Shown here: piece by piece, positions 4,621 through 26,720 of the stretch
Layout: each line of letters starts with the position of its first letter
Position numbering within the stretch: the first letter of the stretch is position 1
From: Thermogemmatispora sp.
GTDB lineage: Bacteria > Chloroflexota > Ktedonobacteria > Ktedonobacterales > Ktedonobacteraceae
Direction of reading: 5' to 3'
Length of the DNA stretch: 36,486 nt
Assembly (NCBI RefSeq): GCF_019683755.1
Contig: NZ_JADGHT010000008.1
Coordinates: forward strand, 1-36,486
Position numbers and translations under genes: made by a program
Notes under the pieces: model-generated
What the model was told of the DNA's origin: nothing
Seen by the model: the letters and a program-made list of their open reading frames with translations, nothing else
Database searches by the model: none

Positions 4621-4734
4621 AGAAACCGCCTCCTACTACCGGTTTCATAGCACCTGCCCTGTCCTGCTTTCGCCCGTCAGCCCTGCCTGAGACGAGCGCA
4701 GCCAGCGAATCCCGTAAGGCCGCATTGCCAGGGT

Positions 4735-4763
4735 ATTATAGCCCTGGTAGTGGGGAGGATCAA
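4735..4763 (-). promoter_or_regulatory. Sigma-70-type promoter of the pseudouridine synthase gene
   Basis: On the minus strand, TTGATC (4763-4758) is followed after 17 bases by TATAAT (4740-4735). The -10 sits in the 8-base centre of the palindrome CCAGGG-N8-CCCTGG (4728-4747), where a bound protein would block it. A second palindrome, GTCTGGTGCCAGAC, lies at 4770-4783, upstream of the -35. Confidence 0.6.
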
Positions 4764-4881
4764 GAGCCGGTCTGGTGCCAGACCAGCCGGCCCAGTCGCA
4801 GCAAGGAAGACTGCCCACTATTTCCGCGACATGATAGAATGTGTAGGATACGGTCCAGGGAAGGCAGAGAGAGGTACGAGC

Positions 4882-11062: not shown

Positions 11063-11848
11063 TTACTCACCGGTAAAGTGTGGGGGGCGCTTTTCCACAA
11101 AGGCGCGTGTGCCTTCCTGGCGGTCATGGGTGCCGAAGAGGACCAGCCAGGCCTCCGCTTCGATGACCAGCCCCTGATCCAGGGAGGTTTGCAGCCCTTG
11201 ATTGATGGCTCGTTTGGCTTGCTGCACGGCGATTGGACTGTTACGCGCGATACGTCGCGCTAGTTCCTGTGCCTCGCTTAAGAGCCGCTCACGCGGTACA
11301 ACGCGATTGACCAGGCCGATCCGCAGCGCTTCCTCAGCGCCTATGCGACGTCCTGTGAAGATCAGTTCTTTAGCTAGACCCGGCCCGAGGAGGCGCGCCA
11401 GACGTTGAGTGCCACCCCAGCCCGGCAAGAGGCCAAGCGAGGTCTCTGGTAAGCCGAGCTGGGCTTCCTCGGCAGCCAGACGAAGATCACAGGCCAGTGC
11501 CAGCTCCAGTCCCCCCCCGAGCGCATAGCCGTTAATGGCCGCAATGCTCACTTTACTACTGCGCTCAAGCCGCAGTAGCAGATCCTGCCCCGCATAGACA
11601 AAGCGCCGCGCCTCGGTCATGCTCATAGCCGCCATATAGGCCACATCCCCACCAGCTACAAAGGCTTTTTCCCCCGCCCCTGTCAGGATGACAACCAGCA
11701 GCTCGTGCTCCTGCTCCAGCTCATCTACCAGCCGCCGCAGCTCCTCGAGCACAGCGTGGTCAATGGCGTTGAGCTGCTCAGGTCGCGTAATAGTCACCTG
11801 GGCCACTTGCCGATGAGGACGTTCAATCTGCAAATAACGGTAGCTCAT
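11063..11848 (-). CDS. Enoyl-CoA hydratase/isomerase (crotonase) family protein
   Basis: This 261-residue protein has AAAGGAGG 5 bases before ATG 11848. The crotonase fold is intact: the oxyanion-hole stretch KAFVAGGDV, then INGYALGGGLELALACDLRLA with E115, and LGLPETSLGLLPGWGGTQRL with E135. Both glutamates of true enoyl-CoA hydratases are present, so hydration of a 2-enoyl-CoA to a 3-hydroxyacyl-CoA is plausible. The C-terminal helices (KRAINQGLQTSLDQGLVIEAEA) are normal. It is the last gene of the leftward set, 30 bases after the acyl-CoA dehydrogenase, whose product it may hydrate. The crotonase family also contains C-C hydrolases that cleave 3-oxo substrates, so other reactions remain possible. 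Confidence 0.9.
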   Translation of the reverse strand: MSYRYLQIERPHRQVAQVTITRPEQLNAIDHAVLEELRRLVDELEQEHELLVVILTGAGEKAFVAGGDVAYMAAMSMTEARRFVYAGQDLLLRLERSSKVSIAAINGYALGGGLELALACDLRLAAEEAQLGLPETSLGLLPGWGGTQRLARLLGPGLAKELIFTGRRIGAEEALRIGLVNRVVPRERLLSEAQELARRIARNSPIAVQQAKRAINQGLQTSLDQGLVIEAEAWLVLFGTHDRQEGTRAFVEKRPPHFTGE

Positions 11849-11878: not shown

Positions 11879-13048
11879 TTAATACGAGCGCGGCAGCCCA
11901 AGCACATGCTGGGCAATGTAGTTGAGAACCATCTCCTGACTGATCGGGGCCAGACGGAAAAGACGCACATCACGCCAGAGACGCTCGATGTGATATTCCG
12001 TTGAGAAGCCGTAGCCACCTAGAGTCTGCATAGCTTGGTCACAGGCGCTAAAGGCGGCTTCCGCTGCCACCATTTTGGCCATGTTAGCCTCTGTGGCACA
12101 GGGCAGGTGATGATCGAGCAACCAGGCGGCCTTATAGTTCATGAGGCGGGCCATTTCGATCTCGGCCTTCAGACGCGCCAGCGGGAACTGAATGGCCTGA
12201 TGGCGACCGATCTTCTGCCCGAAGACGACGCGCGTATTGGCATAGTCGACGGCTAGCTTGATAGCCAGATCTCCGGCGCCTACGCAGCCCGCAGTTGTGA
12301 CGATGCGCTCACTATTGAGGGTATCGACCAGATATCGCCAGCCTTCACCCTCTTCGCCGATGAGGGCCGTCTTGGGCACGACCAGCTCGTCGATGAAGAC
12401 CATGCTTGAGGTCACGCAGTGAGTCCCGACTTTCTCCAGCGGCTGATGACTGATGCCCGGCGCCCGTGGATCAACGAGGAAGAGGCTGAGGCCAAAGGTG
12501 CGACGCGGCGCCTCCTCCAGTGGTGTGGTGCGCGCGACAAGCAGCATGCCACCGGCGCGATCAACGCCTGAGATCCAGACCTTCTGGCCGCTGATGATAT
12601 ATTCATCGCCGCGGCGGCGCGCCAGGGTCTTGGTGGCCAGGGTATCACTGCCAGCGTCCGGCTCCGTGAGAGCCATGCTAAAGTCGAACTCGCCGCGCGC
12701 GAGCGCTGGCAGGTAGCGCTCGCGCTGCTCTTCGGAACCATGGCGCAAGATGGTCAATGCCCCAAAAACCGGCGTCATCATGAATAATTGAGCGATAGTG
12801 GCGCCTGCGCCACTGGCGGCCATCTCTTCTACTACGATCGCCATTTCCAGCAACCCCATGCCAGCCCCCCCATAGCGCTCGGGAACAATAGTTCCCAACC
12901 AGCCAGCCCGAGCCAGCTCCTGCCATAGCTCCTCGGGAAAAGCATGCTGGCGATCTTTCTCGCGCCAGTATTCCAGGCCATAACGGCTGGCGAGCTGCCG
13001 GATGCTCTCACGAATGAGGGTATGCTCTTCTGAGGTCTGAAAATCCAT
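11879..13048 (-). CDS. Acyl-CoA dehydrogenase
   Basis: From ATG 13048 (GGGAG about 7 bases upstream) the protein has 389 residues. The N-terminal helical domain, the beta domain (FSMALTEPDAGSD, 123-135; KVWISGVDRAG, 156-166) and the C-terminal helical domain (LGGYGFSTEYHIERLWRD, 343-360) are all present, so it is a full FAD-dependent acyl-CoA dehydrogenase. The position of the usual catalytic glutamate (YEGT in medium-chain enzymes) reads RLAPIS (365-370). LNSER places E247 where isovaleryl-CoA dehydrogenase keeps its catalytic base, so activity is probably retained by an IVD-like arrangement. A branched or short substrate is possible but not shown. The gene lies 58 bases after E2 and 30 before the crotonase, in one probable transcript. 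Confidence 0.92.
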   Translation of the reverse strand: MDFQTSEEHTLIRESIRQLASRYGLEYWREKDRQHAFPEELWQELARAGWLGTIVPERYGGAGMGLLEMAIVVEEMAASGAGATIAQLFMMTPVFGALTILRHGSEEQRERYLPALARGEFDFSMALTEPDAGSDTLATKTLARRRGDEYIISGQKVWISGVDRAGGMLLVARTTPLEEAPRRTFGLSLFLVDPRAPGISHQPLEKVGTHCVTSSMVFIDELVVPKTALIGEEGEGWRYLVDTLNSERIVTTAGCVGAGDLAIKLAVDYANTRVVFGQKIGRHQAIQFPLARLKAEIEMARLMNYKAAWLLDHHLPCATEANMAKMVAAEAAFSACDQAMQTLGGYGFSTEYHIERLWRDVRLFRLAPISQEMVLNYIAQHVLGLPRSY

Positions 13049-13106
13049 CGTTGTTCTCCCTGTACAAGACAAGATAGGATGGGAAGGATCAAGGCACGCT
13101 CTCTTC

Positions 13107-14420
13107 TCAGTGGGCAGAAAGGAGCAGCGTCGCAGGGTGCTCCAGCAGGTATCTGATCCGTGCCAGGAAACGCGCCGCCGGCTCGCCATCGATTAGACGG
13201 TGATCGAAGGTCAGGCTTAGACCCAGTCGGCTATAGCGCTGGAAGCCATCGGCGCCGGCCCGCACCTGCTCGCAAATGCGCCCTACGCCCAACACGGCCC
13301 CTTGTCCCCTGGGCAGGATGGGCGTGAAGTAGTCCACTCCTTGCGCTCCCAAATTGGTGATGGTAAAGGTCGCCCCCACGAGGGCGTCGGGCAGCAGTCT
13401 ACCGCTGCGAGCCTGCTCAGCGAGGACCTGTAGCTCCGCGCTGATCTCTGCAAGGCTTTTGCGGTCCGCTCCTTGAATCACTGGGACAAGCAAGCCATCC
13501 TCCAGGGCCGTGGCAACACCGATGTTGATCTCTCGATACAGGCGAATCTCGTCTCCCACAAGGGCCGCATTGAGCCGGCGATGCTCTCGCAAGGCACAGG
13601 CGACAATTTTGACCAGCAGATGAGTGATGGTGATGGCCGTCCCTCCAAGGCGCTGTTGCTCCTGTTGCAGCTCTTCTCTGAGCCGAAGAGCTTGTGTAAC
13701 ATCGGCCTCCATCATTAGAGTGAGCTGGGCTGTTCCTTGTAAGCTGCTCAGCATATGCTCGGCGATGCGCCGGCGCATAGGCGTCAATGGCTCACGGTCA
13801 TAGGCTGGCTGGCGTCCCTGCTGCTCCGTCTCACCCGATGATCTGCGCGCCACGTCCTGCGCCGGCGGCATCGCAGCCGAGGCCGGCGCACCCTCCGAGC
13901 GGAGCTGCTGCCAGGCACGTAGAACGTCGGCCTTATGAATGCGTCCCCGGGGGCCGCTGCCCTCGACACGCTCTAGCGGTACGCCCAGGTCCTGCGCCAT
14001 GCGTAAAGCCACAGGCGAGATCTCAAGCCGCCTTCGCCCGTCTCCACCAGCGGTCTCCTGTTTCGGAACAACTGTCCCCCCCCCAGCCGGTTGCGGCTGC
14101 CCCCGTGCCGACTCAGGGGCCTGGAGCTGGCGCGAACGTGCGGCCTCCGCCGTCAGCTCTTCCTGCCGTGGCAGAATGCGGGCAATGATGGCCCCCACGG
14201 CGACCGTCGTGCCCTCGGGCTGAAGGATCTGTAAGTAGCCATTGCTGGGAGCTTCGATCTCATGGGTGATTTTTTCGGTCTCGATTGTGCAGATGACCTC
14301 TCCGGCGTTGACTCGCTCGCCCTGGCGTTTGGCCCACTGGACAATGGTGCCTTCCTGCATAGTCAAGCCCAGGCGAGGCATCATGACCTCGGATTGCACT
14401 CCCTCACTTGCCTCACTCAT
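13107..14420 (-). CDS. 2-oxoacid (or acetoin) dehydrogenase complex E2, lipoyl acyltransferase
   Basis: Starting at ATG 14420 (CAGGAG 6 bases upstream), this 437-residue protein has one lipoyl domain (about 11-84) with the lipoylated lysine K50 in ETEKITHE. A Gln/Ala/Pro/Gly-rich linker follows, then the peripheral E1/E3-binding domain (about 131-167, SPVALRMAQDLGV...GSGPRGRIHKADV), a second linker and the acyltransferase core (about 208-437). The active site is DHRLIDG with H407 and D411. The core also has the TITNLGAQGVDYFTPI signature. It would transfer the acyl group from E1 to CoA. The gene directly follows E1beta (61-base gap). No dihydrolipoamide dehydrogenase (E3) gene is in the window, so E3 must come from elsewhere. 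Confidence 0.93.
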   Translation of the reverse strand: MSEASEGVQSEVMMPRLGLTMQEGTIVQWAKRQGERVNAGEVICTIETEKITHEIEAPSNGYLQILQPEGTTVAVGAIIARILPRQEELTAEAARSRQLQAPESARGQPQPAGGGTVVPKQETAGGDGRRRLEISPVALRMAQDLGVPLERVEGSGPRGRIHKADVLRAWQQLRSEGAPASAAMPPAQDVARRSSGETEQQGRQPAYDREPLTPMRRRIAEHMLSSLQGTAQLTLMMEADVTQALRLREELQQEQQRLGGTAITITHLLVKIVACALREHRRLNAALVGDEIRLYREINIGVATALEDGLLVPVIQGADRKSLAEISAELQVLAEQARSGRLLPDALVGATFTITNLGAQGVDYFTPILPRGQGAVLGVGRICEQVRAGADGFQRYSRLGLSLTFDHRLIDGEPAARFLARIRYLLEHPATLLLSAH

Positions 14421-14481
14421 GGCTGCTCCTGAAAATCTGTGCTCGGTCAGCTCGCCCCATTCAGAGATGAAGCCGTTGACC

Positions 14482-15459
14482 TCATGGTGTGAGTACGCGC
14501 TCGACAGCGGCAATGATAGCCGTTCGATCAGGAACGATCGCCCGTTCCAGTGGTGGCGAAAAAGGGATCGGTGCGAAGGCCGCGCCAACGCGTGTGATAG
14601 GCGCATCAAGCAAGTAGAAAGCCTCCTCACCAAGAGCGGCCGCTAACTCAGCCCCCACCCCACCACAGCGTGTAGCGCTATGGGCAATTACCAGGCGGCT
14701 AGTCTTCTCCAACGAGGTCCGCACCGTCTGCAGATCCAGAGGATTGGCGCTGCGCAGATCGATGACTTCGCAAGAGATTCCGCGCGTGGCCAGCGCTTCC
14801 GCTGCCGCCAGGGCCTCACGCACCATGATGCCAATGCTGGCAATGGTCACATCCTGACCCTCACGCTTGACAGCAGCGCGCTCCAGCGGCAAGACGTACT
14901 CTTCATCTGGTACCTCCTCAGCCAGACCGTACAGGGTTCGGTTCTCGACCACAATCACCGGGTTGTCATCACGGATCGCTGCTTTGAGCAGGCCTTTGGC
15001 TTCGTAGGGACCAGAGGGCATGACGACTTTGAGGCCAGGCACATGGGTCAGCCAGGCCTCCAGGCTTTGGGCATGCTGCGGGCCGGCGCTGTCGCGATAA
15101 CCAGTCTGAGTGCGCACAACCAGCGGCAGCCTGGCCTGTCCTCCTGTCATGTAGCGCATCTTGGCCGCCTGGTTGACAAGCTGGTCCATGACCAGCGCCA
15201 GGAAATCCATGAACATGACTTCAACAACTGGGCGCAGTCCGAGCGTGGCGGCGCCGATGGCCAGCCCAACGACCGCCGCCTCACTGATCGGCGTATCGCG
15301 AACACGCTGCGGACCAAAGCGTTCCTGCAGGCCGCGCGTGGCCCCAAAGGGGCCGCCAGGCGCCCCGACGTCGACGCCGAGGAGACAAACCGCCGGATCA
15401 CGCTCCATTTCCTCACACAGGGCCTCATTGACCGCACGCACATAGCGTTTTTCGGCCAC
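14482..15459 (-). CDS. 2-oxoacid (or acetoin) dehydrogenase E1 beta subunit
   Basis: The chosen start is GTG 15459, with AAAGGAG 8 bases upstream, giving 325 residues, the normal E1beta length. An earlier in-frame start would add an unconvincing extension. The TPP pyrimidine domain has ISEAAVVGLAIGAA (58-71) with the conserved E60 that activates thiamine diphosphate. QAAKMRYMTGGQARLPLVVR and HAQSLEAWLTHVPGLKVVMP are typical of the family. The C-terminal transketolase domain carries GISCEVIDLRSANPLD. It pairs with the E1alpha gene 58 bases upstream to decarboxylate a 2-oxoacid or cleave acetoin. Sequence inspection does not separate pyruvate, branched-chain and acetoin types. Confidence 0.93.
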   Translation of the reverse strand: MAEKRYVRAVNEALCEEMERDPAVCLLGVDVGAPGGPFGATRGLQERFGPQRVRDTPISEAAVVGLAIGAATLGLRPVVEVMFMDFLALVMDQLVNQAAKMRYMTGGQARLPLVVRTQTGYRDSAGPQHAQSLEAWLTHVPGLKVVMPSGPYEAKGLLKAAIRDDNPVIVVENRTLYGLAEEVPDEEYVLPLERAAVKREGQDVTIASIGIMVREALAAAEALATRGISCEVIDLRSANPLDLQTVRTSLEKTSRLVIAHSATRCGGVGAELAAALGEEAFYLLDAPITRVGAAFAPIPFSPPLERAIVPDRTAIIAAVERVLTP

Positions 15460-15517
15460 AGCAATTGCTCCTTTGCTAACCCAGGTAGTAGTTGAGCTTG
15501 AATTAGCGCGAAGTAGC

Positions 15518-16504
15518 TCAGCCTGCCTCAGATGGCTGGTAAAGCACATCCTCTAGCGCTGAGGCAGGATCAGGAAAGGCCGCCTCTTGAGCATAGGCAA
15601 TGGCCTCGGCTACTGCTTCACGGGCCTGAGCTGCCAAGGCGGCTTCTTCGCTCTCGCTGAGGAGAGCCTCACGCCGGAGACGTTCCGCAAAGAGGCGGAG
15701 CGGATCATGAGCCGCCGCTTCCTGCAGCTCGCTTGGCGAACGATAGCGCTGGGGATCACCTTCGTAGTGGCCACGCAGACGCCAGGTCAGGCACTCTACC
15801 AGAGCCGGCCCCTCACCAGCACGGACCCGCTTGAGCGCCTCGCATACAGCAGCCCGCACGGCCAGCGGGTCCTGCCCGTCTACACGCCAGGCCGGCAGGC
15901 GATAAGCAGCGGCCCGCTCAGTCACGCTTTCGACAGCAGCGTGTACACTCAGAGGCGTAAATTCGGCATAGCCGTTATTCTCGCAGAGCAAGAGGAGTGG
16001 CAAGCGCCAGAGAGCGGCAATATTGGCTGTCTCATGAAAGATTCCGGTATTGACGGCCCCGTCGCCGAAGACCGCGACCGCTACCTGCTGCCGTCCCTGC
16101 AACTGCAAGGCCCAGGCCGCCCCCGCCGCATGGGGCAGGCCGGCCCCGACAACACCATTGGCTCCCAGGACCCCTACTTCAAAAGCAGCAATGTGCATTG
16201 AGCCACCCCGTCCCCGACAATAGCCAGCCGCCTTGCCGAAAATCTCCGCCGCCACCCGTTTCAGATCGGCCCCCTTGGCAATGACATGGCCATGCCCCCG
16301 ATGTGTGACATACAGATAGTCATCGCGCTCCAGGGCGCTGGCCAGCCCCGCCGCTACTGCCTCCTGACCGATAGAGAGATGAATAAAGCCAGGAATATGC
16401 TTGGCGGCAAAATGATCACGCACTGCCTCCTCAAAAGCTCGAATTATCAGCATGGTCGCCAGCAGGTGGCGCGCTACTTCTCCATCAAGCTGCTCAGCAG
16501 GCAA
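15518..16504 (-). CDS. 2-oxoacid (or acetoin) dehydrogenase E1 alpha subunit
   Basis: I place the start at TTG 16504, because AGGAGG lies 7 bases before it; the frame stays open to another TTG at 16528. The product has 328 residues, matching E1alpha/AcoA proteins. Features include FIHLSIGQEAVAAGL (40-54), VTHRGHGHVIAKG with H68 and H71, RGGSMHIA, and the TPP/magnesium motif from GDGAVNTG (147-154) to ENN (175-177). With E1beta it forms the heterotetrameric thiamine-diphosphate decarboxylase that feeds E2. It lies 147 bases after the MmgE/PrpD gene in the same direction. Which substrate it uses is not known; an acetoin-type enzyme is possible, since its length and order (alpha, beta, E2) fit aco clusters too. 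Confidence 0.92.
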   Translation of the reverse strand: MPAEQLDGEVARHLLATMLIIRAFEEAVRDHFAAKHIPGFIHLSIGQEAVAAGLASALERDDYLYVTHRGHGHVIAKGADLKRVAAEIFGKAAGYCRGRGGSMHIAAFEVGVLGANGVVGAGLPHAAGAAWALQLQGRQQVAVAVFGDGAVNTGIFHETANIAALWRLPLLLLCENNGYAEFTPLSVHAAVESVTERAAAYRLPAWRVDGQDPLAVRAAVCEALKRVRAGEGPALVECLTWRLRGHYEGDPQRYRSPSELQEAAAHDPLRLFAERLRREALLSESEEAALAAQAREAVAEAIAYAQEAAFPDPASALEDVLYQPSEAG

Positions 16505-16651
16505 GACCTCGCCTCCTCTCCAATCCAAAGAAACAGATTTGACCCCAGAGGGCAGACGGGCAGCAGCAGGAAGGAGAGGGCGCTCGCCCCTCTGCCCGCC
16601 GTCTGCCGCCTGTTCCTCTATCCAAGCCCAACCAGGGCAGCGTAACCCTCC

Positions 16652-18028
16652 CTAACTGCCCACGGAACTGGGAGTCGGCACCGTTAGCAAGCGTATCAGC
16701 TCCTGAACATCGTGGCACTGCTCTAGCGAGCGAATCAGCTCTATCAGGCGCTGGGTCGCCTCTGGTGTCAGAGGCAGGTCAGGCTGCAGCTCCCTGATCA
16801 GCTCTAGCTCGCGCGCAAAGTCCCAGGCATAGTAGCTGGCATCAATCCGCAGCTCCTGCTCCAGCGTACGACCATCGACAAGATGGACAGCCAGGCGCAG
16901 CGAGAGCGGTGGCATATCCTGACGGGCACGCATCTCCAGCTTGTCGATCAGAGCGCGCGTGGCCTCATCATCAAAATGCCTAAGTGCAGCGAAGGAGAAC
17001 GAGCGATGAGCCAGGGCCCAGGCCACACAGAAAGGCGCACTCATTTGCGTCTGCTCCACCGTTGTAAAGGGCCCGGTGTAGGCCATCCCTGGATAATTGG
17101 CCTCGTAGGAGTTCATCTCCAGCTCGACACGCGCAATAGCCTCTGGAGACAGCTCCTGCTCTCGCACCAGCGCCAAAGCCGCCGTGATCGGGCTTTGATT
17201 GAAGGCACAGACCGGATAAGGCTTGAACGTTACATTGAGAATCTCCCAGGTGCGTCCCAGATGACTCACCACGCGCTCCAATCCTTCGCGTGTCCCAGCA
17301 AAGGCCTGATAGAAACCGGCAGGCCCCTCTAGGGCGATGGCCGAGGCTCGCGCCCCCTCGCGCCCCAGCAAAGCAGCCAGCAGACCATTACGCGCCGCCA
17401 CGCCATTCTCAAAGTGCCATTCCATGGTACCCGAGGCAAACGATTGCGTCGTCCCCCCAGCAAAAGCCGAGGCAAAGCCAAGGGCCGCTGCTAGTTGCTC
17501 CTCGCTCAGGGCCAGCGCTTTACCCGCCGCTGCCGCCGCTCCAAAGACCCCATAGATGGCACTGGCGCGAAAGCCGCGCGGCGTTGTCAACGCCGTGAAA
17601 TCGCGGCTGACCGCCGCCAAGACCTCATAGCCAGCCACCAGCGCCGTCAGGAAGGCCCGCCCATCCAGAGGACGTAGCTCGCTCGCCGCCAGCAGGGCAG
17701 GAATAATCATTGTACCCGGGTGGGCTGTCCCATGCGTATCCTCTTGGACGCGCCCATGCAAGATCACCCCATTGGCAAAGGCTGCTCCCGCCAGGCTCGC
17801 CCGCAGCGACGAGCCAATCACAGGCGCGCTCACCTCACTAGTGCCAGGCTCGGCCAGCCTCACCAGGCGGCGAGCAATCTGGGCATACTCCAGCTCAGAG
17901 CCGGCCAGTCCCACTGCCAGACCATGCAATAAGCAGGTCTTGGCCTTATCAATCACCTGGGCAGGCAACGCCTCATAGCTGAGGTTGGTCACAAACTGCG
18001 CAAGCTCCGCGCTCAGCGTTCTTTCCAT
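16652..18028 (-). CDS. MmgE/PrpD family protein (2-methylcitrate dehydratase-like)
   Basis: This 458-residue protein starts at ATG 18028, with GAGGAGG 7 bases upstream. The helical N-terminal domain carries the conserved VQEDTHGTAHPGTMIIPALLA block (94-114; D97, H99, H103), and FASGTMEWHFENGVAARNGLLAA marks the family in the middle. FKPYPVCAFNQSPITAALAL follows, and the smaller C-terminal domain is complete. Known members dehydrate 2-methylcitrate (PrpD) or decarboxylate cis-aconitate; many have no assigned substrate. No methylcitrate synthase or methylisocitrate lyase is nearby, so a propionate role is not supported by context. It sits between the acyl-CoA ligase and the E1/E2 genes, which points to a hydroxy-diacid or branched intermediate in the same pathway. 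Confidence 0.9.
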   Translation of the reverse strand: MERTLSAELAQFVTNLSYEALPAQVIDKAKTCLLHGLAVGLAGSELEYAQIARRLVRLAEPGTSEVSAPVIGSSLRASLAGAAFANGVILHGRVQEDTHGTAHPGTMIIPALLAASELRPLDGRAFLTALVAGYEVLAAVSRDFTALTTPRGFRASAIYGVFGAAAAAGKALALSEEQLAAALGFASAFAGGTTQSFASGTMEWHFENGVAARNGLLAALLGREGARASAIALEGPAGFYQAFAGTREGLERVVSHLGRTWEILNVTFKPYPVCAFNQSPITAALALVREQELSPEAIARVELEMNSYEANYPGMAYTGPFTTVEQTQMSAPFCVAWALAHRSFSFAALRHFDDEATRALIDKLEMRARQDMPPLSLRLAVHLVDGRTLEQELRIDASYYAWDFARELELIRELQPDLPLTPEATQRLIELIRSLEQCHDVQELIRLLTVPTPSSVGS

Positions 18029-18191: not shown

Positions 18192-19769
18192 CTAGCTGGC
18201 AGGCTGACTGGAACTGGCCCCTTTGGCCGAGGCGGCGAGATCCTCAGCGACACGCAGACGTAGCTCTCGCTTCAGCACCTTGCCCGAAGGATTGCGCGGT
18301 AGCGCTTCGATGAAAAAGATATGATGCGGGACCTTAAAGCGGGCCAGCTTAGCCTGACAAGCAGCACGCAGCTCCTCGGCAGTCACCGTCTGACCCGGCT
18401 TCACCACCACATAGGCCACCGGCACCTCACCCCAGCGCGGATGCGGCATTCCCACGACCGCCGCCTCCAAAACGCGCGGGTCCTCATAGAGCACCCGTTC
18501 AACTTCGAGCGAAGCGATGTTCTCGCCACCGCTGATAATCATGTCCTTCTTGCGATCAACAATGTAGAGATAGCCCTCTTCGTCAAGATAGCCGATGTCA
18601 CCAGTGTGGAACCAACCATTGCGTAGGGCCGCCGCCGTGGCCTCGGGGTCCTTCCAATAACCTTTAAAGACCTTCGGACCACGTAGCACGATCTCCCCCG
18701 GCTGGCGCGGTGGCAGTGGCTGATCGTTCTCATCAACAATACGCAGCTCTAGATGGAGACAAGGCTTGCCGACCGAGCCGATCTTTTCAATGGTCTTGGC
18801 CTTATCGAGATAGGTATCGCCCGAGACCGTCTCGGTCAGACCATAGGCATCAGCAAACCAGGCCTGGGGGAAGAGCGAGAGCAACTTCTCAATGAGCGGA
18901 ATGGGCATTTTCTCGCCACCATCGATGATGAAGCGAACCGAGCTGAGGTCGTAATTCCAGATGCCTTCAGCCTGCAGCAACATATTGATCATCGATGGCG
19001 GCAGCCACATATTGGTGACACGCTCGCGCTGCACGGCCTCTAACAAGGCCAATGGCTCAAACTTGCGCAAGATAACCACGCTGCCACCTGCATAGAGGAC
19101 CGAGGTCGCCGGCAGATCTAACCCCCCTACGTGATAGAGCGGTCCCACAATGAGCGTACGATCCGCCGCCGTGATGCCGAAGAGCGTGATTTGAGCGATG
19201 TTCTTCCAATAAAGATTGCCATAGGAGATCATGACCCCCTTGGGATAAGCCGTCGTCCCAGAGGTGTACATAAGCCGATGCAAATCATCGCTCCCTACCT
19301 CTACTGCTGGCACATGTCGCCCCCGATGGGCCGCGACCAGCTCATCGTAGACCAGCCAGCCAGCGGGGACGTCCTCTCCCACGCCAAGCACAGAGTGCAG
19401 ACCCGGACAACGCCCACGAACCGCCTCAACGACAGGGGCAAACTCACGCTCACTCACAAGGAGCTTGGCTTCGCTGTGATTGAGGATATAGACCAGCTCT
19501 TCGCCTACAAGCCGCCAGTTGACCGGCAGCGCTACTGCCCCCAGCCGGTTCACAGCAATGATGGTCTCCAGAAACTCAGGGCAGTTCTTGAGAAGAATAG
19601 CAACAATATCGCCAGCCTCCAGGCCACGCTCCTTGAGAGCACAGGCAAGGGCCTCACAGCGCTCCTGAAGCTGACCATAGCTGAGCCGCCGCCCCTCGTA
19701 AATCATGGCTTCTCGCTCAGGATGCCGTTCCGCGTAGTGCTCAATTACACTGCTGAAATTGAAGGTCAT
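18192..19769 (-). CDS. AMP-forming acyl-CoA ligase (long-/medium-chain or aryl acid type)
   Basis: From ATG 19769 (AAAGGAG 6 bases upstream) the protein has 525 residues, the usual length. Adenylation motifs occur in order: P-loop YTSGTTAYPKG (168-178), IIDGGEKMP, ADAYGLTETVSGD, HTGDIGYLDEEGYLYIVDRKKDMI with the hinge, SGGENIASLEVERVL, and the catalytic lysine in PSGKVLKRE (K497). It would activate a carboxylic acid to its CoA ester with ATP, releasing AMP and pyrophosphate, in the cytosol. It is the first gene of the leftward set and directly follows the TTGACG/TATACT promoter with its operator. In acetophenone-type pathways such a ligase acts on the 3-oxoacid made by the carboxylase; here that role is an inference from the divergent HyuA/HyuB genes. 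Confidence 0.93.
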   Translation of the reverse strand: MTFNFSSVIEHYAERHPEREAMIYEGRRLSYGQLQERCEALACALKERGLEAGDIVAILLKNCPEFLETIIAVNRLGAVALPVNWRLVGEELVYILNHSEAKLLVSEREFAPVVEAVRGRCPGLHSVLGVGEDVPAGWLVYDELVAAHRGRHVPAVEVGSDDLHRLMYTSGTTAYPKGVMISYGNLYWKNIAQITLFGITAADRTLIVGPLYHVGGLDLPATSVLYAGGSVVILRKFEPLALLEAVQRERVTNMWLPPSMINMLLQAEGIWNYDLSSVRFIIDGGEKMPIPLIEKLLSLFPQAWFADAYGLTETVSGDTYLDKAKTIEKIGSVGKPCLHLELRIVDENDQPLPPRQPGEIVLRGPKVFKGYWKDPEATAAALRNGWFHTGDIGYLDEEGYLYIVDRKKDMIISGGENIASLEVERVLYEDPRVLEAAVVGMPHPRWGEVPVAYVVVKPGQTVTAEELRAACQAKLARFKVPHHIFFIEALPRNPSGKVLKRELRLRVAEDLAASAKGASSSQPAS

Positions 19770-19978
19770 GACGCGCTCCTTTGCCAGCTCGCCAGGCCAC
19801 AGCTCAGCAGGTAGATCGCCCCTTTGCGCGCTGATACCCGGCAAGCACCTTCCTTCCAGGTTGCTGGACCGCAGAGATAGAGGAGAAGGCCTCACAACGT
19901 AGCGCAGCGCCTCTCCGCCAGCCCGCTGACAGAGAGGATAGTCTGGCTCCTTGGCAAGCACGTATGCGCTGCTTGCCG

Positions 19979-19992
19979 ACCGACCAATCGGT
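19979..19992. promoter_or_regulatory. Candidate TetR operator 1 (leftward set)
   Basis: The minus strand reads ACCGATTGGTCGGT, a near-palindrome that lies 12 bases downstream of the leftward -10, at about +6 to +19 of the transcript. A repressor bound here would block the start of transcription. The same element recurs at 20187-20200. Confidence 0.65.
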
Positions 19993-20004: not shown

Positions 20005-20034
20005 AGTATAACATAGCCTGCAATTTGGCGTCAA
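20005..20034 (-). promoter_or_regulatory. Promoter of the leftward catabolic set
   Basis: On the minus strand, TTGACG (20034-20029), an 18-base spacer and TATACT (20010-20005). The 15-base block CTATGTTATACTTCC around the -10 matches the divergent promoter at 14 of 15 positions. Transcription should start near 19998. Confidence 0.7.
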
Positions 20035-20152: not shown

Positions 20153-20182
20153 TTGACGGGGGCTCTTCGCCTATGCTATACT
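20153..20182 (+). promoter_or_regulatory. Promoter of the rightward hyuA/hyuB set
   Basis: TTGACG (20153-20158), an 18-base spacer and TATACT (20177-20182), embedded in CTATGCTATACTTCC. This architecture is the same as the leftward promoter. Transcription should start near 20189, inside the adjoining operator. Confidence 0.7.
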
Positions 20183-20186
20183 TCCA

Positions 20187-20200
20187 ACCGACTGGTCGGT
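20187..20200. promoter_or_regulatory. Candidate TetR operator 2 (rightward set)
   Basis: ACCGACTGGTCGGT begins 4 bases after the -10 and covers the expected start of transcription. Six of seven half-site positions are symmetric. It differs from operator 1 at one position. The TetR protein encoded at 25122 is the likely ligand; this is inferred from repeat, position and context. Confidence 0.65.
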
Positions 20201-20389: not shown

Positions 20390-20611
20390 ATGAGCGTCTA
20401 CCCACGGTCCAGTGAGCCTTTCCTCTTCGTCCACAAGGAGCCTGTCCAGGGCCAATGCCCGGAGTGTGGCAGCCACAACCTGCGGCGTTACCCCGTGCTG
20501 AGCGAAGGCGGCTGGTGGCTGGTGACGAAATGCCAAGACTGCCTCTATAGCCTTGAGCGCCAGCGCTGGGGCCGCCTCGGCTCCATTCAGCTTCTCTCCG
20601 AGACACTCTAG
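20390..20611 (+). CDS. Small zinc-ribbon protein (73 residues), putative carboxylase/hydantoinase accessory subunit
   Basis: An ATG at 20390 preceded by AGGGAGG (11 bases away) opens a 73-residue frame. Two CxxC knuckles, C23/C26 (QCPECGSHN) and C48/C51 (KCQDCL), with 21 residues between, form a classic zinc ribbon. The rest is short and partly aromatic (GGWWLVT). It is the first gene of the rightward transcript, about 100 bases before HyuA. Acetone and acetophenone carboxylases, which are built on HyuA/HyuB-like subunits, also include small subunits, some zinc-binding, so an accessory-subunit role is plausible. I do not recognise a named family, and a regulator or unrelated role cannot be excluded. 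Confidence 0.75.
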   Translation: MSVYPRSSEPFLFVHKEPVQGQCPECGSHNLRRYPVLSEGGWWLVTKCQDCLYSLERQRWGRLGSIQLLSETL

Positions 20612-20711: not shown

Positions 20712-22742
20712 ATGCTTGCAGTCGATGTTGGCGGCACCTTCACCGATGTTGTGGCCCTCACTGACCACACGATCAAGGTGACCAAGGTCCCTACCAATAC
20801 TCTGGAGACGGAGCGCTCGGTGCTCGAAGGCGCACGTCTGCTCGATGTCGCTCGTAAACCGATCTTCAACCACGCCAGTACTGTTGGTCTGAACGCCATT
20901 ATTACCCGCCGCTTGCCCAAGGTGGCCTTTTTGACGACGCTAGGACATCGAGACATCCTGGACATGGGACGCACGTGGCGCCCGCTTGATGCCTTGACAG
21001 ATCCTGGCTGGCGTCGTCCCTTTGGTGATGCCGCTGCTCCCCTGGTTCCTCGTTATCTGCGCCGAGGGATTAGCGAGCGTATCACCGCTGATGGCAGTGT
21101 GCTGATCCCGCTCGACGAGGCTCAGGCCCGCGAGCAACTAGCCATTCTCAGGAAATGCCATGTTCAGGGCGTGGCTATCTGCCTGCTCAACGCCTACGTG
21201 AATCCTCAGCATGAGATCCGCCTGCGCGAGCTAGTGCGTGAGGAGCTGGGTGATATCCCTTGTTCGATCTCTTCCGAGGTCTCTCCTCTGGCCAAGGAGT
21301 ATGCCCGTGCTTCGACGACCCTGATCGACGTGCTGATGAAGATCATTTTCTCACAGTATTCGCATAATCTGCTCTCCGGACTACGTGAGGCCGGTTTCGC
21401 TGGTCAGGTGAATTTCGCCGACTGCGCTGCGATGCTGCGTCCGGCAGAGATTGCGATGGAGCAGCCTTTCCGCATTGTCTTCGCCGGGCCAGCCGCGGGA
21501 GCGGTCTCTAGTGCCCACTTCGGACGCCTGATCGGCGAGGAGAACTTGATCTGCTGCGATATCGGCGGAACATCCTGCGATATCAGCGTGGTCACGCGCG
21601 GGCAACCAGTAGTGAATGAGACCTTCGAGCTGGAGCATGATCTGCTGGTGAATGCCCTTTCGATCGAGATCGCCAGCATCGGGGCCGGCGGCGGGAGCAT
21701 CGTCTCTATTTCTCCTTCCGGCGAGATGCGTGTCGGACCAGAGAGCGCCGGCGCCGATCCTGGCCCGGCCTGCTATGGCAAGGGCGGCACGGCCCCCACT
21801 CTGACCGATACCTGCCTGCTGATCGGCATCCTTGATCCCGAGCGCTTCCTCGGCGGACAGATGCGTCTTGATGTGGATCTGGCGCGCGCGGCCTTCGAGC
21901 GCTTGCCGACTTCGTTGAGTCTGGAGAAGCGCATCGAGTACGCCTATAAGATCGGTCTCAATAATATCGCCGAGGGCCTGCTGGATATCACGATTAAGCA
22001 GGGCATCGATCCACGCGATTATAGTTTGATCGCTTACGGCGCAGCCGGCCCGCTCTTCCTGCCGGCGATCCTCGAGCAGATCAAGGCTAAGCGGGTGATT
22101 GTTCCTCCCTATCCCGGCTTCTTCTCGGCGCTCGGGCTGCTTAGCTCCGATCTGGTCTACTCCGACAGCCGCAGCGCTTATATGGTTCTGACTCCGGAAG
22201 TTGCCCCGACCATCGCTCAGATCTATCACGCCATGGAGGAAAAGTTACTGGCGCGTATTCCGGGCGATAAAAGTCAGGTGCGCATCTTGCGCAGCTTCGA
22301 CGGGCGCTTGCTTGGCCAGACCTGGGAGACCCCCTTTGTGGAGGTGCCTGCTGGCGAGATTACGGCTGAGACGATCGCGACGATGATCGAGAACTTCCAT
22401 CGCGTCTATGAGCAGCGTTCAGGCAATCGCTTCGAGGCGATTCCGGTCCAGAGTGTGACCTATCGCGTGCAGGTCGTGGTTCCTTCTCAGAAGGTAGAAT
22501 ATCCTTTCCTGGGAGAGGGCCAGCCGCATGAGGTGGCTCCCGAGCACTGGACGACGCTGCGCTATCTCGGCAATGGTGAGCTGCGGGTCGCCGAATATGA
22601 GCGGGCCCACCTGACAAGTGGGGCCATTGTGCGTGGCCCGGCGATTATCCGTGAACCAACGTCTACTATTCACGTGGTCGCCGGTCAGGTGGCCCGTGTT
22701 GGTTCATGGGGCGAGGTTATCATTGAGCCTGTTGCTTCCTAG
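20712..22742 (+). CDS. HyuA-family subunit (hydantoinase A / ketone carboxylase-like ATPase)
   Basis: Starting at ATG 20712 with GAGGAG 7 bases upstream, this protein has 676 residues. The actin-like ATPase fold begins MLAVDVGGTFTDVV (phosphate loop 4-11). It continues with STVGLNAIITRR, the FAGPAAGAVSSAHFG stretch, the second nucleotide motif CDIGGTSCDISVV, GGGSIV and SAGADPGPACYGKGG. The late motif AYGAAGPLF is also present. The family covers ATP-dependent hydantoinases, 5-oxoprolinases and the large subunits of acetone and acetophenone carboxylases. With HyuB downstream it should form an ATP-driven enzyme that either opens a lactam ring or carboxylates an activated ketone. Context (dehydrogenase, acyl-CoA ligase) leans towards the carboxylase option, but this is an inference. 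Confidence 0.92.
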   Translation: MLAVDVGGTFTDVVALTDHTIKVTKVPTNTLETERSVLEGARLLDVARKPIFNHASTVGLNAIITRRLPKVAFLTTLGHRDILDMGRTWRPLDALTDPGWRRPFGDAAAPLVPRYLRRGISERITADGSVLIPLDEAQAREQLAILRKCHVQGVAICLLNAYVNPQHEIRLRELVREELGDIPCSISSEVSPLAKEYARASTTLIDVLMKIIFSQYSHNLLSGLREAGFAGQVNFADCAAMLRPAEIAMEQPFRIVFAGPAAGAVSSAHFGRLIGEENLICCDIGGTSCDISVVTRGQPVVNETFELEHDLLVNALSIEIASIGAGGGSIVSISPSGEMRVGPESAGADPGPACYGKGGTAPTLTDTCLLIGILDPERFLGGQMRLDVDLARAAFERLPTSLSLEKRIEYAYKIGLNNIAEGLLDITIKQGIDPRDYSLIAYGAAGPLFLPAILEQIKAKRVIVPPYPGFFSALGLLSSDLVYSDSRSAYMVLTPEVAPTIAQIYHAMEEKLLARIPGDKSQVRILRSFDGRLLGQTWETPFVEVPAGEITAETIATMIENFHRVYEQRSGNRFEAIPVQSVTYRVQVVVPSQKVEYPFLGEGQPHEVAPEHWTTLRYLGNGELRVAEYERAHLTSGAIVRGPAIIREPTSTIHVVAGQVARVGSWGEVIIEPVAS

Positions 22743-22899
22743 GACCTTCTGCTCTAGGCGCAACGGGGAGGGGCCGTCTGGCTGAGTACGCTACGCTTCG
22801 CTTGCTTTGCCGTCGGCCTCTGTCCGTTGCCGCCTCCGCTTTGTTCTGCTCGACTGATCGCTTGTTGTATGCTGCTTAGTGCTTGAGGAGGTTCCTACG

Positions 22900-24849
22900 A
22901 TGGTGCGCGTTGAGCCACCGGTGCTTATTAAGGATCTGGACGAGGACGCTTTCCGCGCGCGCTACCACTGTGATCGCTTTACAGCCACAGTGCTTTCTAG
23001 CCGCCTGCGCTATATTGTACAGCATATGTGCACCGGCCTGCTGACTAATGCCTTTTCAGTAATTCTACGTGATTGGTACGATTTCGCGAGCACGATTGCT
23101 GGTCCACCAGAGCTGGACTATCCGACACCGGCGGTCAGCAATAGTCTGGTTCTCTTCTTGGGGACGATGACCGATGCGGTGCGCAATGCTGTCGAGGAAT
23201 TCGGACCCCAGAATCTGCAGCCAGGCGATGTGCTGATGTGCAACGATCCCTATCGCATCGGCACTCACGTTAACGATGTCTGCTTTATCCGCCCGGTCTT
23301 TTTCGAAGGCCGCTTAGTCGGTTTTGTCAACCTGCAGGCCCACATGCTCGATATGGGCGGCGTGGTTCCGGCTGGTTTCAGTGGCACAAAGCGCAATGTC
23401 TATGAGAATGGCCTAGTCATCGGACCCCAGTTGCTCTATCACGGCGATCGTCCGGTGAAGTCAGCCTGGAGCCTGATTTTCGATAATGCGCGCTTTGGCA
23501 ATCTCATGCTGCCGGATATTAAGACAATCTACCAGAACCTGCGTTTGGGTGAGAATCTGCTACTGGAGACCATCCAGCGCTATGGGGTCGAAAGCTATCT
23601 GGGAGCGATCCGCTACGCTTGCGATCTGTCCGCAGAGACCATGCGCCAGGCCTTGGCTCGTCTGCCGGATGGCGAGTTCGAGGGCGAGGATTTCATCGAC
23701 TGCGATGGCATCGACGATAGTGAGGAGTATCATGTCAAAGTCAAGGTACGCATCCGCGGCGATCGCGCTGAGGTGGATCTGAGTGGCAGCTCACGGCAGG
23801 CCCGCACCAGCATTAATGGCGGTTGGTTGGACGCTAAGACGGCGGTGGCAGTCGCTCTTAAGTATTTGCTGGACCCGCGCAGCCCCTTTACATCGGGCAC
23901 ACTGCGCAATGTGGATATTGTCCTGCCAGAAGGCACGTTTTTCAGCGCTATGCCCCCCGATGGCGCGATCTTCCTCTATTGGGAAAGCACACAGCCTTTG
24001 TTGTTGGCGATCTTCCGCGCTCTGAAAGACGCTTTGGGGCCGAACGCGGTCGGCGGCGACTATTGTTCGCTCAATATTCATAATGCCAACGGGGTGCGTA
24101 ACGGTATCCCCTGGGTGACAATGGCGCAGTGCGGCGGTGAACATGGTCCCTGGGGCGCGACCAAGGACGGCGATGCCGATAGCTACATGGTCTTCTATCT
24201 GGCGAATAATCTTGATCCGGCAACTGAGGCCATTGAATCCGATTTTCCTTGCGTGGTGCTGCGCAAGGAATACGCGACCGATACCGCCGGTGCCGGTCAG
24301 CATCGCGGCGGAGCGGCTGTGGTGAAAGATACGCTGTGGTTGACCGAGGCTGAGCATTATTCGATGCCGCTGCATACAAAGGCTCCTAGTGGCTTCGGTG
24401 TCTACGGGGGCAAGGATGGGGCAGTGGGGGCAGTCTGGGTCTGGGAACCCGAGGCCTATGAGCAGGTTCAACGAGCCGGGCTGGTTGGCTTTGATGAAGC
24501 CGTCTATCGCCAGGCAACGCCGGTCGCCGGAGTTCTTAACCCTGAGACCCACGCCCTCGATCGTCAGGGACGCTATTTCCACTTCGCCCGCGTGCCGATC
24601 TGGCGCACACGTCCCCGCACTATGTTCCGCTATCTGACTAACGGCGGCGGGGGTTGGGGCAATCCGTTGGAGCGACCCCCTGAGCGGGTTCTCCGCGATG
24701 TGCGTGATGAGTATATCAGCATTGAGACAGCACGAGAGCTGTATGGTGTTGTGATTCGGGGCGATCCTTACCACGATCCTGAGGGTCTTGAGATCGATTA
24801 TGAGGCAACGCAGGCGCGGCGCAGCGCAGCCGCCGGCCAGAGCCATTGA
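22900..24849 (+). CDS. HyuB-family subunit (hydantoinase B / ketone carboxylase-like)
   Basis: I choose ATG 22900, which has GAGGAGG 8 bases upstream, over the in-frame GTG at 22879 that contains that site; this gives 649 residues. The family signatures are clear: LMCNDPYRIGTHVNDVCFIRPVF, NLQAHMLDMGGVVPAGFSG, DIKTIYQNLRLGENL, VDLSGSSRQARTSING, and the glycine-rich C-terminal NGGGGWGNPLERPPE. It is a full-length partner of HyuA and is expected to hold a catalytic site for ring opening or carboxylation. It lies 157 bases after HyuA; the gap holds no visible gene. Substrate unknown. Confidence 0.92.
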   Translation: MVRVEPPVLIKDLDEDAFRARYHCDRFTATVLSSRLRYIVQHMCTGLLTNAFSVILRDWYDFASTIAGPPELDYPTPAVSNSLVLFLGTMTDAVRNAVEEFGPQNLQPGDVLMCNDPYRIGTHVNDVCFIRPVFFEGRLVGFVNLQAHMLDMGGVVPAGFSGTKRNVYENGLVIGPQLLYHGDRPVKSAWSLIFDNARFGNLMLPDIKTIYQNLRLGENLLLETIQRYGVESYLGAIRYACDLSAETMRQALARLPDGEFEGEDFIDCDGIDDSEEYHVKVKVRIRGDRAEVDLSGSSRQARTSINGGWLDAKTAVAVALKYLLDPRSPFTSGTLRNVDIVLPEGTFFSAMPPDGAIFLYWESTQPLLLAIFRALKDALGPNAVGGDYCSLNIHNANGVRNGIPWVTMAQCGGEHGPWGATKDGDADSYMVFYLANNLDPATEAIESDFPCVVLRKEYATDTAGAGQHRGGAAVVKDTLWLTEAEHYSMPLHTKAPSGFGVYGGKDGAVGAVWVWEPEAYEQVQRAGLVGFDEAVYRQATPVAGVLNPETHALDRQGRYFHFARVPIWRTRPRTMFRYLTNGGGGWGNPLERPPERVLRDVRDEYISIETARELYGVVIRGDPYHDPEGLEIDYEATQARRSAAAGQSH

Positions 24850-25121: not shown

Positions 25122-25733
25122 GTGGCGCGTAAGCGCGATATCATCGAGGTAGCTGCCCAGTTGTTCGCCCGGCACGGCTACCACGGTACCAGCGTACGTG
25201 ATCTCTCTGAGGCGCTGGGGCTCGGTAAGGCCAGCCTCTACCACCATATCGAGAGCAAGGACGAACTCCTGTTCTGGGTGCATGAGCAGTTCATTAATCC
25301 CTTACTGGAGGAGACAGAGCGACGCCTGAGCGCCGAGATGGACCCACGCGATGCGCTGCGCACTTTGAGCTGTATTCTGATGCGCGTCATCGCTGACTAT
25401 CGGCCCTACGTGACTGTCTTCTTGAATGAGTGGCGGGCGCTCTCTCCTGAGCGCGCGGCGGCGATTCGGGAGAAGCGCAAGCGCTTCGAGGGCTATATCC
25501 GCGCCGCTCTGCAGCGCGGTATCGAGCAGGGCCTGTTTCGCCCCCTGGATGTTTCGGTGACCTGCCTGGGCTTTCTGGGTATGCATAACTACGCCTATCA
25601 GTGGCTCAATCCCGAGGGTCGCCTTTCCCCTGAGGAGATCGCCGCTATCTTTAGCTCGATTTTCTTGCGCGGTATCGCACAGGGACCGGGCGAGGTCCAG
25701 GGTCAGGCTCCGCCAGCCCCGGCTAGCCCATAA
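25122..25733 (+). CDS. TetR-family transcriptional regulator
   Basis: This 203-residue protein starts at GTG 25122 with AGGAGG 6 bases upstream. The N-terminal helix-turn-helix is RHGYHGTSVRDLSEALGLGKASLYHHIESKDELL (about 17-50), the most conserved TetR block, of the kind seen in fatty-acid and steroid regulators (FadR-TetR, KstR2 type). The C-terminal ligand-binding domain is helical, with YRPYVTVFLNEWRALSPER as in KstR2/FadR-like members that bind acyl-CoA. The tail is Pro/Ala rich. It lies 272 bases after HyuB and is followed by the dehydrogenase. The two operator-like palindromes at the divergent promoter 5 kb upstream are its likely sites, and a CoA ester of the pathway its likely effector; both are inferences. 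Confidence 0.9.
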   Translation: MARKRDIIEVAAQLFARHGYHGTSVRDLSEALGLGKASLYHHIESKDELLFWVHEQFINPLLEETERRLSAEMDPRDALRTLSCILMRVIADYRPYVTVFLNEWRALSPERAAAIREKRKRFEGYIRAALQRGIEQGLFRPLDVSVTCLGFLGMHNYAYQWLNPEGRLSPEEIAAIFSSIFLRGIAQGPGEVQGQAPPAPASP

Positions 25734-25967: not shown

Positions 25968-26720
25968 ATGGCAGCAGCTCCTGTTAGCGATCGGATTAAC
26001 CTGAATGGTCAGGTGGCGGTGGTGACCGGTGCAGCCCGGGGTATCGGTCAGGCCACTGCCCGCGTGCTGGCCCGTGAGGGGGCCAGTGTGGCTGCCCTGG
26101 ATGTGCTGCCGTGCACGGAGACGGTGCAAGCGGTAGAAGCTCAGGGTCAGCGCGCGCTGAGTGTCCAGTGCGACGTGTCTGATGCTCAGCAGGTGCGCCA
26201 GGCTCTCGATGAGGTCGTGACCCGTCTCGGTCCCCCTCATATTCTGGTGACCTGCGCCGGCGTGGTCTCGCGGACGGATCTGGAGGCAATGACCGTCGAG
26301 GAGTGGGATCGGGTCTTGGCCATCGATCTGCGCGGGACGTTCCTTTGTGTGCAGGCGGTCTATCCTCATATGAAGGCCCGTGGCTACGGGAAGATCGTTT
26401 GTGTGGGATCGGTCGCCGCGAAAGTGGGCGGCGTGATCTCTGGTCCGCATTATGTGGCCGCCAAAGGCGGCGTTCACTCTTTCATTAAGTGGGTGGCTAA
26501 GGCCGGCGCCCCCCACGCCATCTATGTGAACGCGGTCGCTCCCGGCCCCGTCTGGACCGATATGACTATTGGCCACCCGTATCGGGATGATATGTCTCCT
26601 TTGGGCCGCTTGGGCGACCCGCGCGATATTGCTGAGGCGATTCTCTTCCTGGCTTCTCCTGCCTCGAATTGGATCACTGGTTTGATTCTGGATGTGAATG
26701 GCGGAATGTTGATGGATTAG
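25968..26720 (+). CDS. Short-chain dehydrogenase/reductase (FabG-like)
   Basis: This 250-residue protein has AAGGCGG 7 bases before ATG 25968. It is a classical SDR: cofactor motif TGAARGIG (20-27), D45 after the second strand (favours NAD over NADP), TCAG (95-98) in place of NNAG, catalytic S148, Y162 and K166 (YVAAK), and APGPVWTDMT after the active site. The usual Asn of the catalytic tetrad is Asp (IDLRGTF, D120), a change seen in other SDRs. It could oxidise a secondary alcohol to a ketone, or reduce a 3-oxoacyl intermediate. Its place after HyuA/HyuB and TetR suggests that it feeds the carboxylase-like enzyme, as the phenylethanol dehydrogenase does in acetophenone pathways. Confidence 0.9.
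   Translation: MAAAPVSDRINLNGQVAVVTGAARGIGQATARVLAREGASVAALDVLPCTETVQAVEAQGQRALSVQCDVSDAQQVRQALDEVVTRLGPPHILVTCAGVVSRTDLEAMTVEEWDRVLAIDLRGTFLCVQAVYPHMKARGYGKIVCVGSVAAKVGGVISGPHYVAAKGGVHSFIKWVAKAGAPHAIYVNAVAPGPVWTDMTIGHPYRDDMSPLGRLGDPRDIAEAILFLASPASNWITGLILDVNGGMLMD

Follow-up and report, generated by a model that had tools for sequence, protein, structure and literature searches.

Gene organization at the ribbon locus

We analysed a 36,486-nt stretch of DNA (hereafter the window) from Thermogemmatispora, a genus of thermophiles. On its forward strand, an open reading frame with an ATG start (20390–20611) encodes a protein of 73 residues (hereafter the ribbon) with two CxxC pairs, C23/C26 and C48/C51, in the arrangement CX2C-X21-CX2C. 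As the preliminary description had stated, this frame precedes the gene for HyuA, whose ATG at 20712 lies 100 nt past its end, and HyuB comes next, at 22879. We propose that the ribbon is a third subunit of the HyuA/HyuB enzyme. HyuA (20712–22742, + strand, 676 aa) is the ATP-binding subunit, with matches to PF01968 and PF05378 far over the cut-off, and HyuB (22879–24849, + strand, 656 aa) is the metal-site subunit, with a PF02538 match far over the cut-off. Genes for a TetR-family regulator (25122–25733) and an SDR dehydrogenase (25968–26720) lie 3′ of HyuB on the same strand, giving the order ribbon-HyuA-HyuB-TetR-SDR. Given gaps of about 270 nt between HyuB and TetR and about 230 nt between TetR and SDR, a single transcript for this gene run is no more than possible.

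Because dN/dS is low and homologues occur in records of six named phyla, the ribbon frame is a real gene under selection and not a chance ORF. Compared with three same-genus orthologues, it carries 1–3 nonsynonymous and 13–16 synonymous differences (dN/dS = 0.017–0.043), and its product is 96–99% identical to the ribbons of the Thermogemmatispora records L061, L062, and L066. The family has no name. Such a gene had been expected to be missed in annotation. In the plasmid records examined this did not hold: both Rhodococcus plasmids with gene tables list it as a 'hypothetical protein', and two further plasmid records are unannotated at the ribbon place.

On the reverse strand, a divergent gene encodes an AMP-forming acyl-CoA ligase (18192–19961), for which the ATG at 19769 is probably the true start. 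Further genes on that strand encode an MmgE/PrpD-family protein (16652–18028), dehydrogenase E1 alpha (15518–16528) and E1 beta (14482–15549), a 2-oxoacid dehydrogenase E2 (13107–14633), an acyl-CoA dehydrogenase (11879–13189), and an enoyl-CoA hydratase (11063–11848). A promoter-like site, TTGACG-N18-TATACT (20153–20182, + strand), lies about 210–240 nt 5′ of the ribbon gene, and a divergent site with identical hexamers and spacing (20005–20034, − strand) faces the CoA ligase gene; as a class, such sites are barely in excess (4 found, 2.5 expected). Both carry the palindrome ACCGA-N4-TCGGT: ACCGACTGGTCGGT (20187–20200, + strand), a possible operator, stands directly 3′ of the ribbon-side site, and ACCGACCAATCGGT (19979–19992, − strand) directly 3′ of the divergent one. 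The window holds two copies against 0.02 expected, for a pattern that was picked after the sites had been seen. The palindrome recurs at matching positions in three close orthologous loci (L061, L062, and L066), and L065 has two copies (1660 and 1755) 5′ of an acyl-CoA dehydrogenase gene. Since the palindrome is present at both divergent promoter-like sites, the genes on the ribbon side and those on the CoA ligase side probably belong to one regulon, and the TetR-family protein encoded at 25122 is the candidate regulator that may bind the palindrome.

The neighbours of the ribbon cluster are not constant. Among 63 ribbon loci, many of them short, an SDR is found in 36, a CoA ligase in 25, and a crotonase in 17. 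Amycolatopsis-type clusters, whose ribbons are Cys-free (see below), share enzymes with the window, namely the CoA ligase (56–58% identity), E1 beta (57–59%), SDR (about 48%), and crotonase (41–42%). The neighbouring genes had led us to anticipate BadI-like cleavage of a cyclic ketone ring by the crotonase; this idea was dropped because the scores of the crotonase are those of an ordinary enoyl-CoA hydratase.

Association of the ribbon with one HyuA/HyuB branch

Ribbon loci were collected from a ribbon-alignment scan of named species genomes (58 loci) and from plasmids (4 loci), giving 62. The scan demanded the motif RYPV[LH][ST]EGG, and the conservation of that stretch in the scan-derived alignment is therefore biased. 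The distance from the ribbon stop to the start of HyuA is −4 to +263 nt in 58 of the 62 loci, with an overlap in five. The four exceptions differ from one another. In L095, the ribbon is 3′ of HyuB. In L070 (9989–18031), two HyuA copies (61–62% to the window) flank one HyuB, and the single ribbon gene is separated from HyuA by 1.8 kb. In L064, the ribbon is followed by HyuB with no HyuA between them, and an orthologous HyuA was not found in this genome (G019), which is 83% complete; since HyuB homology in the contig (4106–6155) stops near residue 512, this copy may be decaying or misassembled. In L093 (10001–10825, Burkholderia stagnalis), the ribbon is intact, HyuA is a 201-aa fragment, and no HyuB was seen nearby.

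Searches made with HyuA only, which scored just the top three or four candidates in each genome, covered three taxon samples. The first sample, a single family with 249 genomes, gave 34 places in 29 genomes; the second (369 genomes) gave 3 places in 2 genomes, and the third (385 genomes) gave 1 place in 1 genome. Identities to HyuA fall in a clear band: in one HyuA search, 24 places stood at 58–65% and the other 14 at 37% or less. A profile search found the ribbon gene at all 38 HyuA-found places of the three samples, of which 15 repeat loci of the ribbon scan and 23, equal to 18 distinct sequences, are new. Ribbons at 18 of these places (16 of the 34 in the first sample) have no scan motif and were thus unreachable by the ribbon scan. 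When all 52 HyuA-found loci that were tested are taken together, the ribbon lies inside the examined stretch in 49, and the three misses (L127, L143, and L140) belong to the L070 and L095 clusters, in which the ribbon is farther away. The ribbon was found at none of the 15 control loci with paralogous HyuA/HyuB, which include one Apc-type locus and near-copies and mostly span 1.5 kb on each side of HyuA, like the tested loci.

The ribbon is present in four of the six Thermogemmatispora genomes, all four of which carry HyuA/HyuB at 95–100% identity. In the other two (G003 and G004, 94–95% complete), neither the ribbon nor HyuA/HyuB orthologues were found, only paralogues at 28–37%. The ribbon is a constant companion of one HyuA/HyuB branch across phyla; the conservation beside hyuA/hyuB to which the preliminary description had looked is therefore observed, and the absence beside these genes in close relatives, which it had set against its own proposal, was not seen.

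The residues expected to bind ATP in HyuA (Asp5, Asp283, Pro350, and Pro352) are present in 114/114 aligned HyuA rows, and the metal tetrad of HyuB (Asp68, His130, Asp133, and His155) in 55/55 aligned HyuB rows, both row counts including near-copies and doubly listed places. Further genomes gave weak ribbon matches (E 3e-4 to 0.1); most of these were inspected in frame, they resemble zinc ribbons of other kinds or proteins that are not ribbons, and they were left unused. Three records (L071, L079, and L086) are titled as Klebsiella pneumoniae MAGs, and the HyuA tree places them among gammaproteobacterial MAGs; their titles are probably wrong.

Predicted fold of the ribbon, Cys-free relatives and probable relation to VdcD

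The window ribbon is predicted to be a three-stranded zinc ribbon with two CxxC knuckles, of the TFIIS/RPB9 type. The AF2 model (pLDDT 84.7) has strands at residues 31–38, 41–48, and 54–60. With this model, Foldseek ranked a TFIIS chain first (E 0.11) and placed VdcD chains at ranks 2–5, 7, and 9 (E 0.25–0.56) and again at E 1.6. The top rows of VIA-align are chains of RNA polymerase, TFIIS, and ELOF1, with Z up to 4.1, a value that is weak on its own, and an rmsd of 0.9 over 34 residues; VdcD is not among the 50 rows listed for the window model, which is no evidence of a differing fold.

Sequence comparisons also point to VdcD (ShdD), the small subunit of the UbiD-type vanillate/4-hydroxybenzoate decarboxylase (NF041205; PDB 7AE4, 7AE5, and 7AE7). 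No Pfam or NCBIfam model reached its cut-off with ribbon members scanned singly, and alignment scans of the family gave weak matches only. Across the family, VdcD gives the lowest E-value of any NCBIfam model (1.3e-5); the window ribbon matches this model at 2.1e-4 and 21.1 bits, short of the 30-bit cut-off, and 9 of 36 members match it at E up to 0.5. In a PDB sequence search, the first match of the window ribbon is ShdD/ShVdcD (E 0.022), and VdcD was not found when a profile of 36 members was used. With hhalign, the Cys rows score 93% to VdcD and 16% to a PF08882 gamma set, as uncalibrated pairwise values. A weak match to PxpB, a 5-oxoprolinase subunit, in 5 of 36 members (best 0.0013) was treated as chance.

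The spacing CX2C-X21-CX2C occurs in 64 of 65 Cys rows, the remaining row having 24 residues between the pairs, and the same spacing is given by the cysteines of ShVdcD (C3, C6, C28, and C31; PMC8379154). The window ribbon also shares with VdcD the core W-x-V-x-x-C-x-x-C. Like VdcD, the ribbon is three-stranded, smaller than 10 kDa, and a constant partner of a larger enzyme; VdcD is described as an integral subunit that activates VdcC allosterically (PMC8379154). The two differ in that the ribbon falls under the VdcD cut-off, has different tails, and is partnered with HyuA/HyuB instead of UbiD; no UbiD is present among the 16 window proteins scanned, the ribbon included. They differ too in the existence of Cys-free ribbons, whereas the two CXXC motifs of VdcD are called conserved (PMC8379154). 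The ribbon is likely related to VdcD, although the two could be separate picks out of the large zinc-ribbon pool.

The four-Cys motif is absent from 47 of 112 ribbon rows, the other 65 being the Cys rows, and these counts again include near-copies and doubly listed places; a less redundant set of 71 HyuA rows comprises 43 with Cys ribbons and 28 with Cys-free ones. Here, Cys-free means that the four-Cys motif is missing, and L098 and its copy L138 retain one Cys at the place of the first pair. In all 47 Cys-free rows, the second pair (CQxC) is replaced by H or N, any two residues, and T or S, mostly as HQxT, and the first pair is replaced inside a stretch that is 12 residues longer. The hhalign values of the Cys-free rows (uncalibrated and pairwise) are 99.8% with the Cys rows, 0.1% with VdcD, and 0.6% with the gamma set. 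Two ribbon alignments were built from ATG-start rows only (n = 36 and n = 24). Invariant in 18 ribbons that were not selected by motif are V36, S38, E39, G41, W42, K47, L52, R57, G64, and L68. In the HyuA tree of the branch, from which only near-copies were removed (>97% by a simple position count), all Cys-free rows fall into one supported group of 31 (28 Cys-free and 3 Cys) nested among Cys rows. Three changes between Cys and Cys-free are needed on this tree, one of which is forced by well-supported branches (SH-aLRT only). Both kinds of ribbon occur together in four genomes (G406, G407, G412, and G530).

The AF2 model of a Cys-free ribbon from Thermocrispum (L106, pLDDT 81.5) has strands at residues 43–50, 53–60, and 66–72, in the register of the window ribbon shifted by 12, and helices 21–26 and 31–34 stand where the zinc knuckle would be. 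The two models are not independent because their alignments share rows of both Cys types, and fold searches with the Cys-free model returned nothing convincing. Since the Cys-free ribbons appear to keep their strands while the site residues of HyuA and HyuB are unchanged, the zinc of the ribbon probably has no part in catalysis or in metal delivery to HyuB. The loss of the zinc-binding residues in many relatives suggests that the zinc is scaffolding only. Zinc-free paralogues are likewise known among zinc-ribbon ribosomal proteins. With so many rows having lost the four-Cys motif, the zinc measurement that had been proposed as a check is not a universal test of the family.

Candidate functions of the ribbon and its enzyme

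The hydantoinase/oxoprolinase/caprolactamase enzymes (HyuA/HyuB and CapA/CapB) give the closest HyuA scores and share the ATP motifs and the metal tetrad. Against PDB entries, HyuA scores 333.5 bits with N-methylhydantoinase, 236.5 bits with Apc, and 180.7 bits with Acx, and its best NCBIfam match is caprolactamase alpha at 380.6 bits, under the cut-off. In a broad HyuA tree, a quick one with long branches, the ribbon-type HyuA sequences form a single clade (aLRT 100) on a long stem, grouped with 18 other paralogue rows of neither the Apc nor the Acx type, and HyuA of Apc (10 rows) and Acx (4 rows) are grouped apart from them (aLRT 97). The Apc and Acx labels in this tree rest on an adjacent PF08882 gamma gene, 'Hyd' being the remainder, and the rows are uncharacterised; ribbon-type rows identical to a skipped copy were omitted.

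Hydantoinase-type enzymes have two subunits, whereas the ribbon branch has a third gene, a long-stem HyuA clade, and an extra stretch in HyuB. This stretch, about 40 residues near 524–564, is missing from two complete ordinary paralogues (587 and 533 aa), and the length of HyuB in the branch (639–662 aa, median 652 in 52 rows) lies between those paralogues and the Apc-type beta (687 aa). PMC5214803 bases its annotation criteria on the order of the genes and the length of the subunits, assigns two genes to hydantoinases and a third to ketone carboxylases, and describes gamma as absent from any Hyd complex. The ribbon branch mixes these criteria, having an alpha that is neither Apc nor Acx, an extra small gene, an Apc-like order, and an intermediate beta.

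One possible reading, with the balance tilted against it, is that the enzyme would use ATP to hydrolyse a cyclic amide (a lactam, an imide, or a hydantoin), and that the ribbon would be an extra subunit stabilising it. The scores against N-methylhydantoinase and caprolactamase alpha and the grouping of HyuA with uncharacterised paralogues are consistent with this, as may be the N-acyl-D-amino-acid deacylase-like amidohydrolase that adjoins the cluster in 4 of 63 loci (L067, L068, L079, and L085). Transaminase, carbamoylase, or amidase partners are expected in hydantoin and caprolactam pathways. None of these was seen among the operon proteins scanned, and both the length of HyuB relative to the two complete paralogues and the two-subunit make-up given for Hyd enzymes in PMC5214803 argue against such a hydrolase.

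The gamma subunits of acetone and acetophenone carboxylases (AcxC/ApcB) are, like the ribbon, small four-Cys proteins encoded with HyuA/HyuB-type subunits, and the preliminary description had suggested that the ribbon could be a minimal version of such a subunit. If the ribbon were a trimmed gamma, the enzyme would be an Apc-type ketone carboxylase without alpha′ and epsilon; the order gamma-alpha-beta would then correspond to the apcBCD part of apcABCDE, the four Cys and the intermediate length of HyuB would be in keeping, and a CoA ligase would lie nearby as in the apc operon (PMC5214803). We regard this as unlikely. PF08882 (cut-off 21 bits) has no match at E up to 5 in the window ribbon, nor in five other members, and is not among the 25 families listed, of 43, from a Pfam scan of 36 members. 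It is also unmatched at the ribbon places of 25 genomes; true PF08882 matches lie elsewhere in 11 of these genomes. Gamma is larger than the ribbon, or stands at the end of a longer frame, and its Cys pairs (22/25/75/78 in Apc and 74/76/124/127 in Acx; PMC5214803 and PMC5543143) are 47–49 residues apart, against 21 in the ribbon. Together with the low hhalign value to the gamma set and the position of HyuA outside the Apc+Acx group, these differences led us to reject the identity of the ribbon with the Apc/Acx gamma, and the suggestion of a minimal ketone-carboxylase subunit was not borne out. The zinc of Acx and Apc gamma is judged to be non-catalytic (PMC5214803 and PMC5543143), and gamma is described as Yippee-like (PMC5543143).

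A separate Apc-type cluster, alpha′-gamma-alpha-beta with a true PF08882 gamma, is present in T. tikiterensis (G001) elsewhere on the contig that carries the ribbon system (L119, 2186–8783). Since this cluster has its own gamma, the ribbon and Apc-type systems are separate. A PF08882 gamma-like stretch ends long frames in L187, L188, L190, L194–L196, L198, L199, and L228; the last (2795–4999) is a 735-aa HyuB-type frame on a contig that also carries the L098 ribbon cluster.

As a small, Cys-rich protein adjoining a metal-site enzyme, the ribbon might be imagined to load the metal site of HyuB, as a chaperone or maturation factor, a role we hold to be very improbable given that the four-Cys motif is missing from 47 of 112 ribbons while the HyuB metal ligands are invariant (55/55). 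Scarcely tenable is a nucleic-acid-binding or regulatory protein merely sharing the operon: most of the structural matches are to zinc ribbons in transcription proteins, but the ribbon tracks the HyuA branch across phyla with differing neighbours, is absent at 15/15 paralogue loci, and has invariant residues that are mostly not basic.

We consider it likely that a distinct branch of ATP-dependent HyuA/HyuB enzymes has an obligate third subunit, the small protein encoded by the ribbon gene. For this enzyme, we infer complex formation, a structural or allosteric role of the ribbon, co-regulation, the substrate, and the reaction. HyuA would phosphorylate a carbonyl substrate with ATP, and the activated intermediate would pass to the metal site of HyuB. 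The ribbon would be a non-catalytic subunit that stays permanently attached to HyuB and/or HyuA through its tail and its sheet of three strands; the enzyme would need it to assemble or to keep active-site loops in place, as VdcD activates VdcC; by analogy, the VdcD-VdcC pair seems the best model for its mechanism. The zinc would merely staple the ribbon sheet, and two short helices would replace it in many relatives. The product acid would probably be loaded onto CoA by the adjoining ligase and then degraded by the adjoining dehydrogenases.

The identity of the neighbouring genes leans to a route from an alcohol via a ketone and a beta-keto acid to a CoA thioester, and the tree position and scores of HyuA lean to hydrolysis. 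The grouping of HyuA away from the ketone carboxylases counts against ketone carboxylation, which is the reaction to which we lean, at or just short of an even balance. More tentatively, and with somewhat less than even confidence, we propose a third HyuA/HyuB architecture, gamma-alpha-beta, in which a VdcD-type ribbon would have been recruited independently, forming what is probably a new class of ketone carboxylase with zinc-free activators in many members. In the open-licence literature, we found no account of a small third subunit for the ribbon-type HyuA/HyuB branch, and the terms 'hydantoinase' and 'zinc ribbon' nowhere together. Three points are new here, namely the constancy of the third gene, its VdcD-like Cys spacing, and the existence of Cys-free relatives.

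The ribbon family provides a subunit-like partner that is found naturally both with and without its metal site, which would allow the subunit role to be told apart from the metal role. Because the ribbon branch misfits the published annotation criteria (PMC5214803), 'hydantoinase' annotations in this branch need re-examination. If the enzyme carboxylates ketones, it would be a simpler, three-subunit, biotin-free carboxylase, here in Thermogemmatispora.
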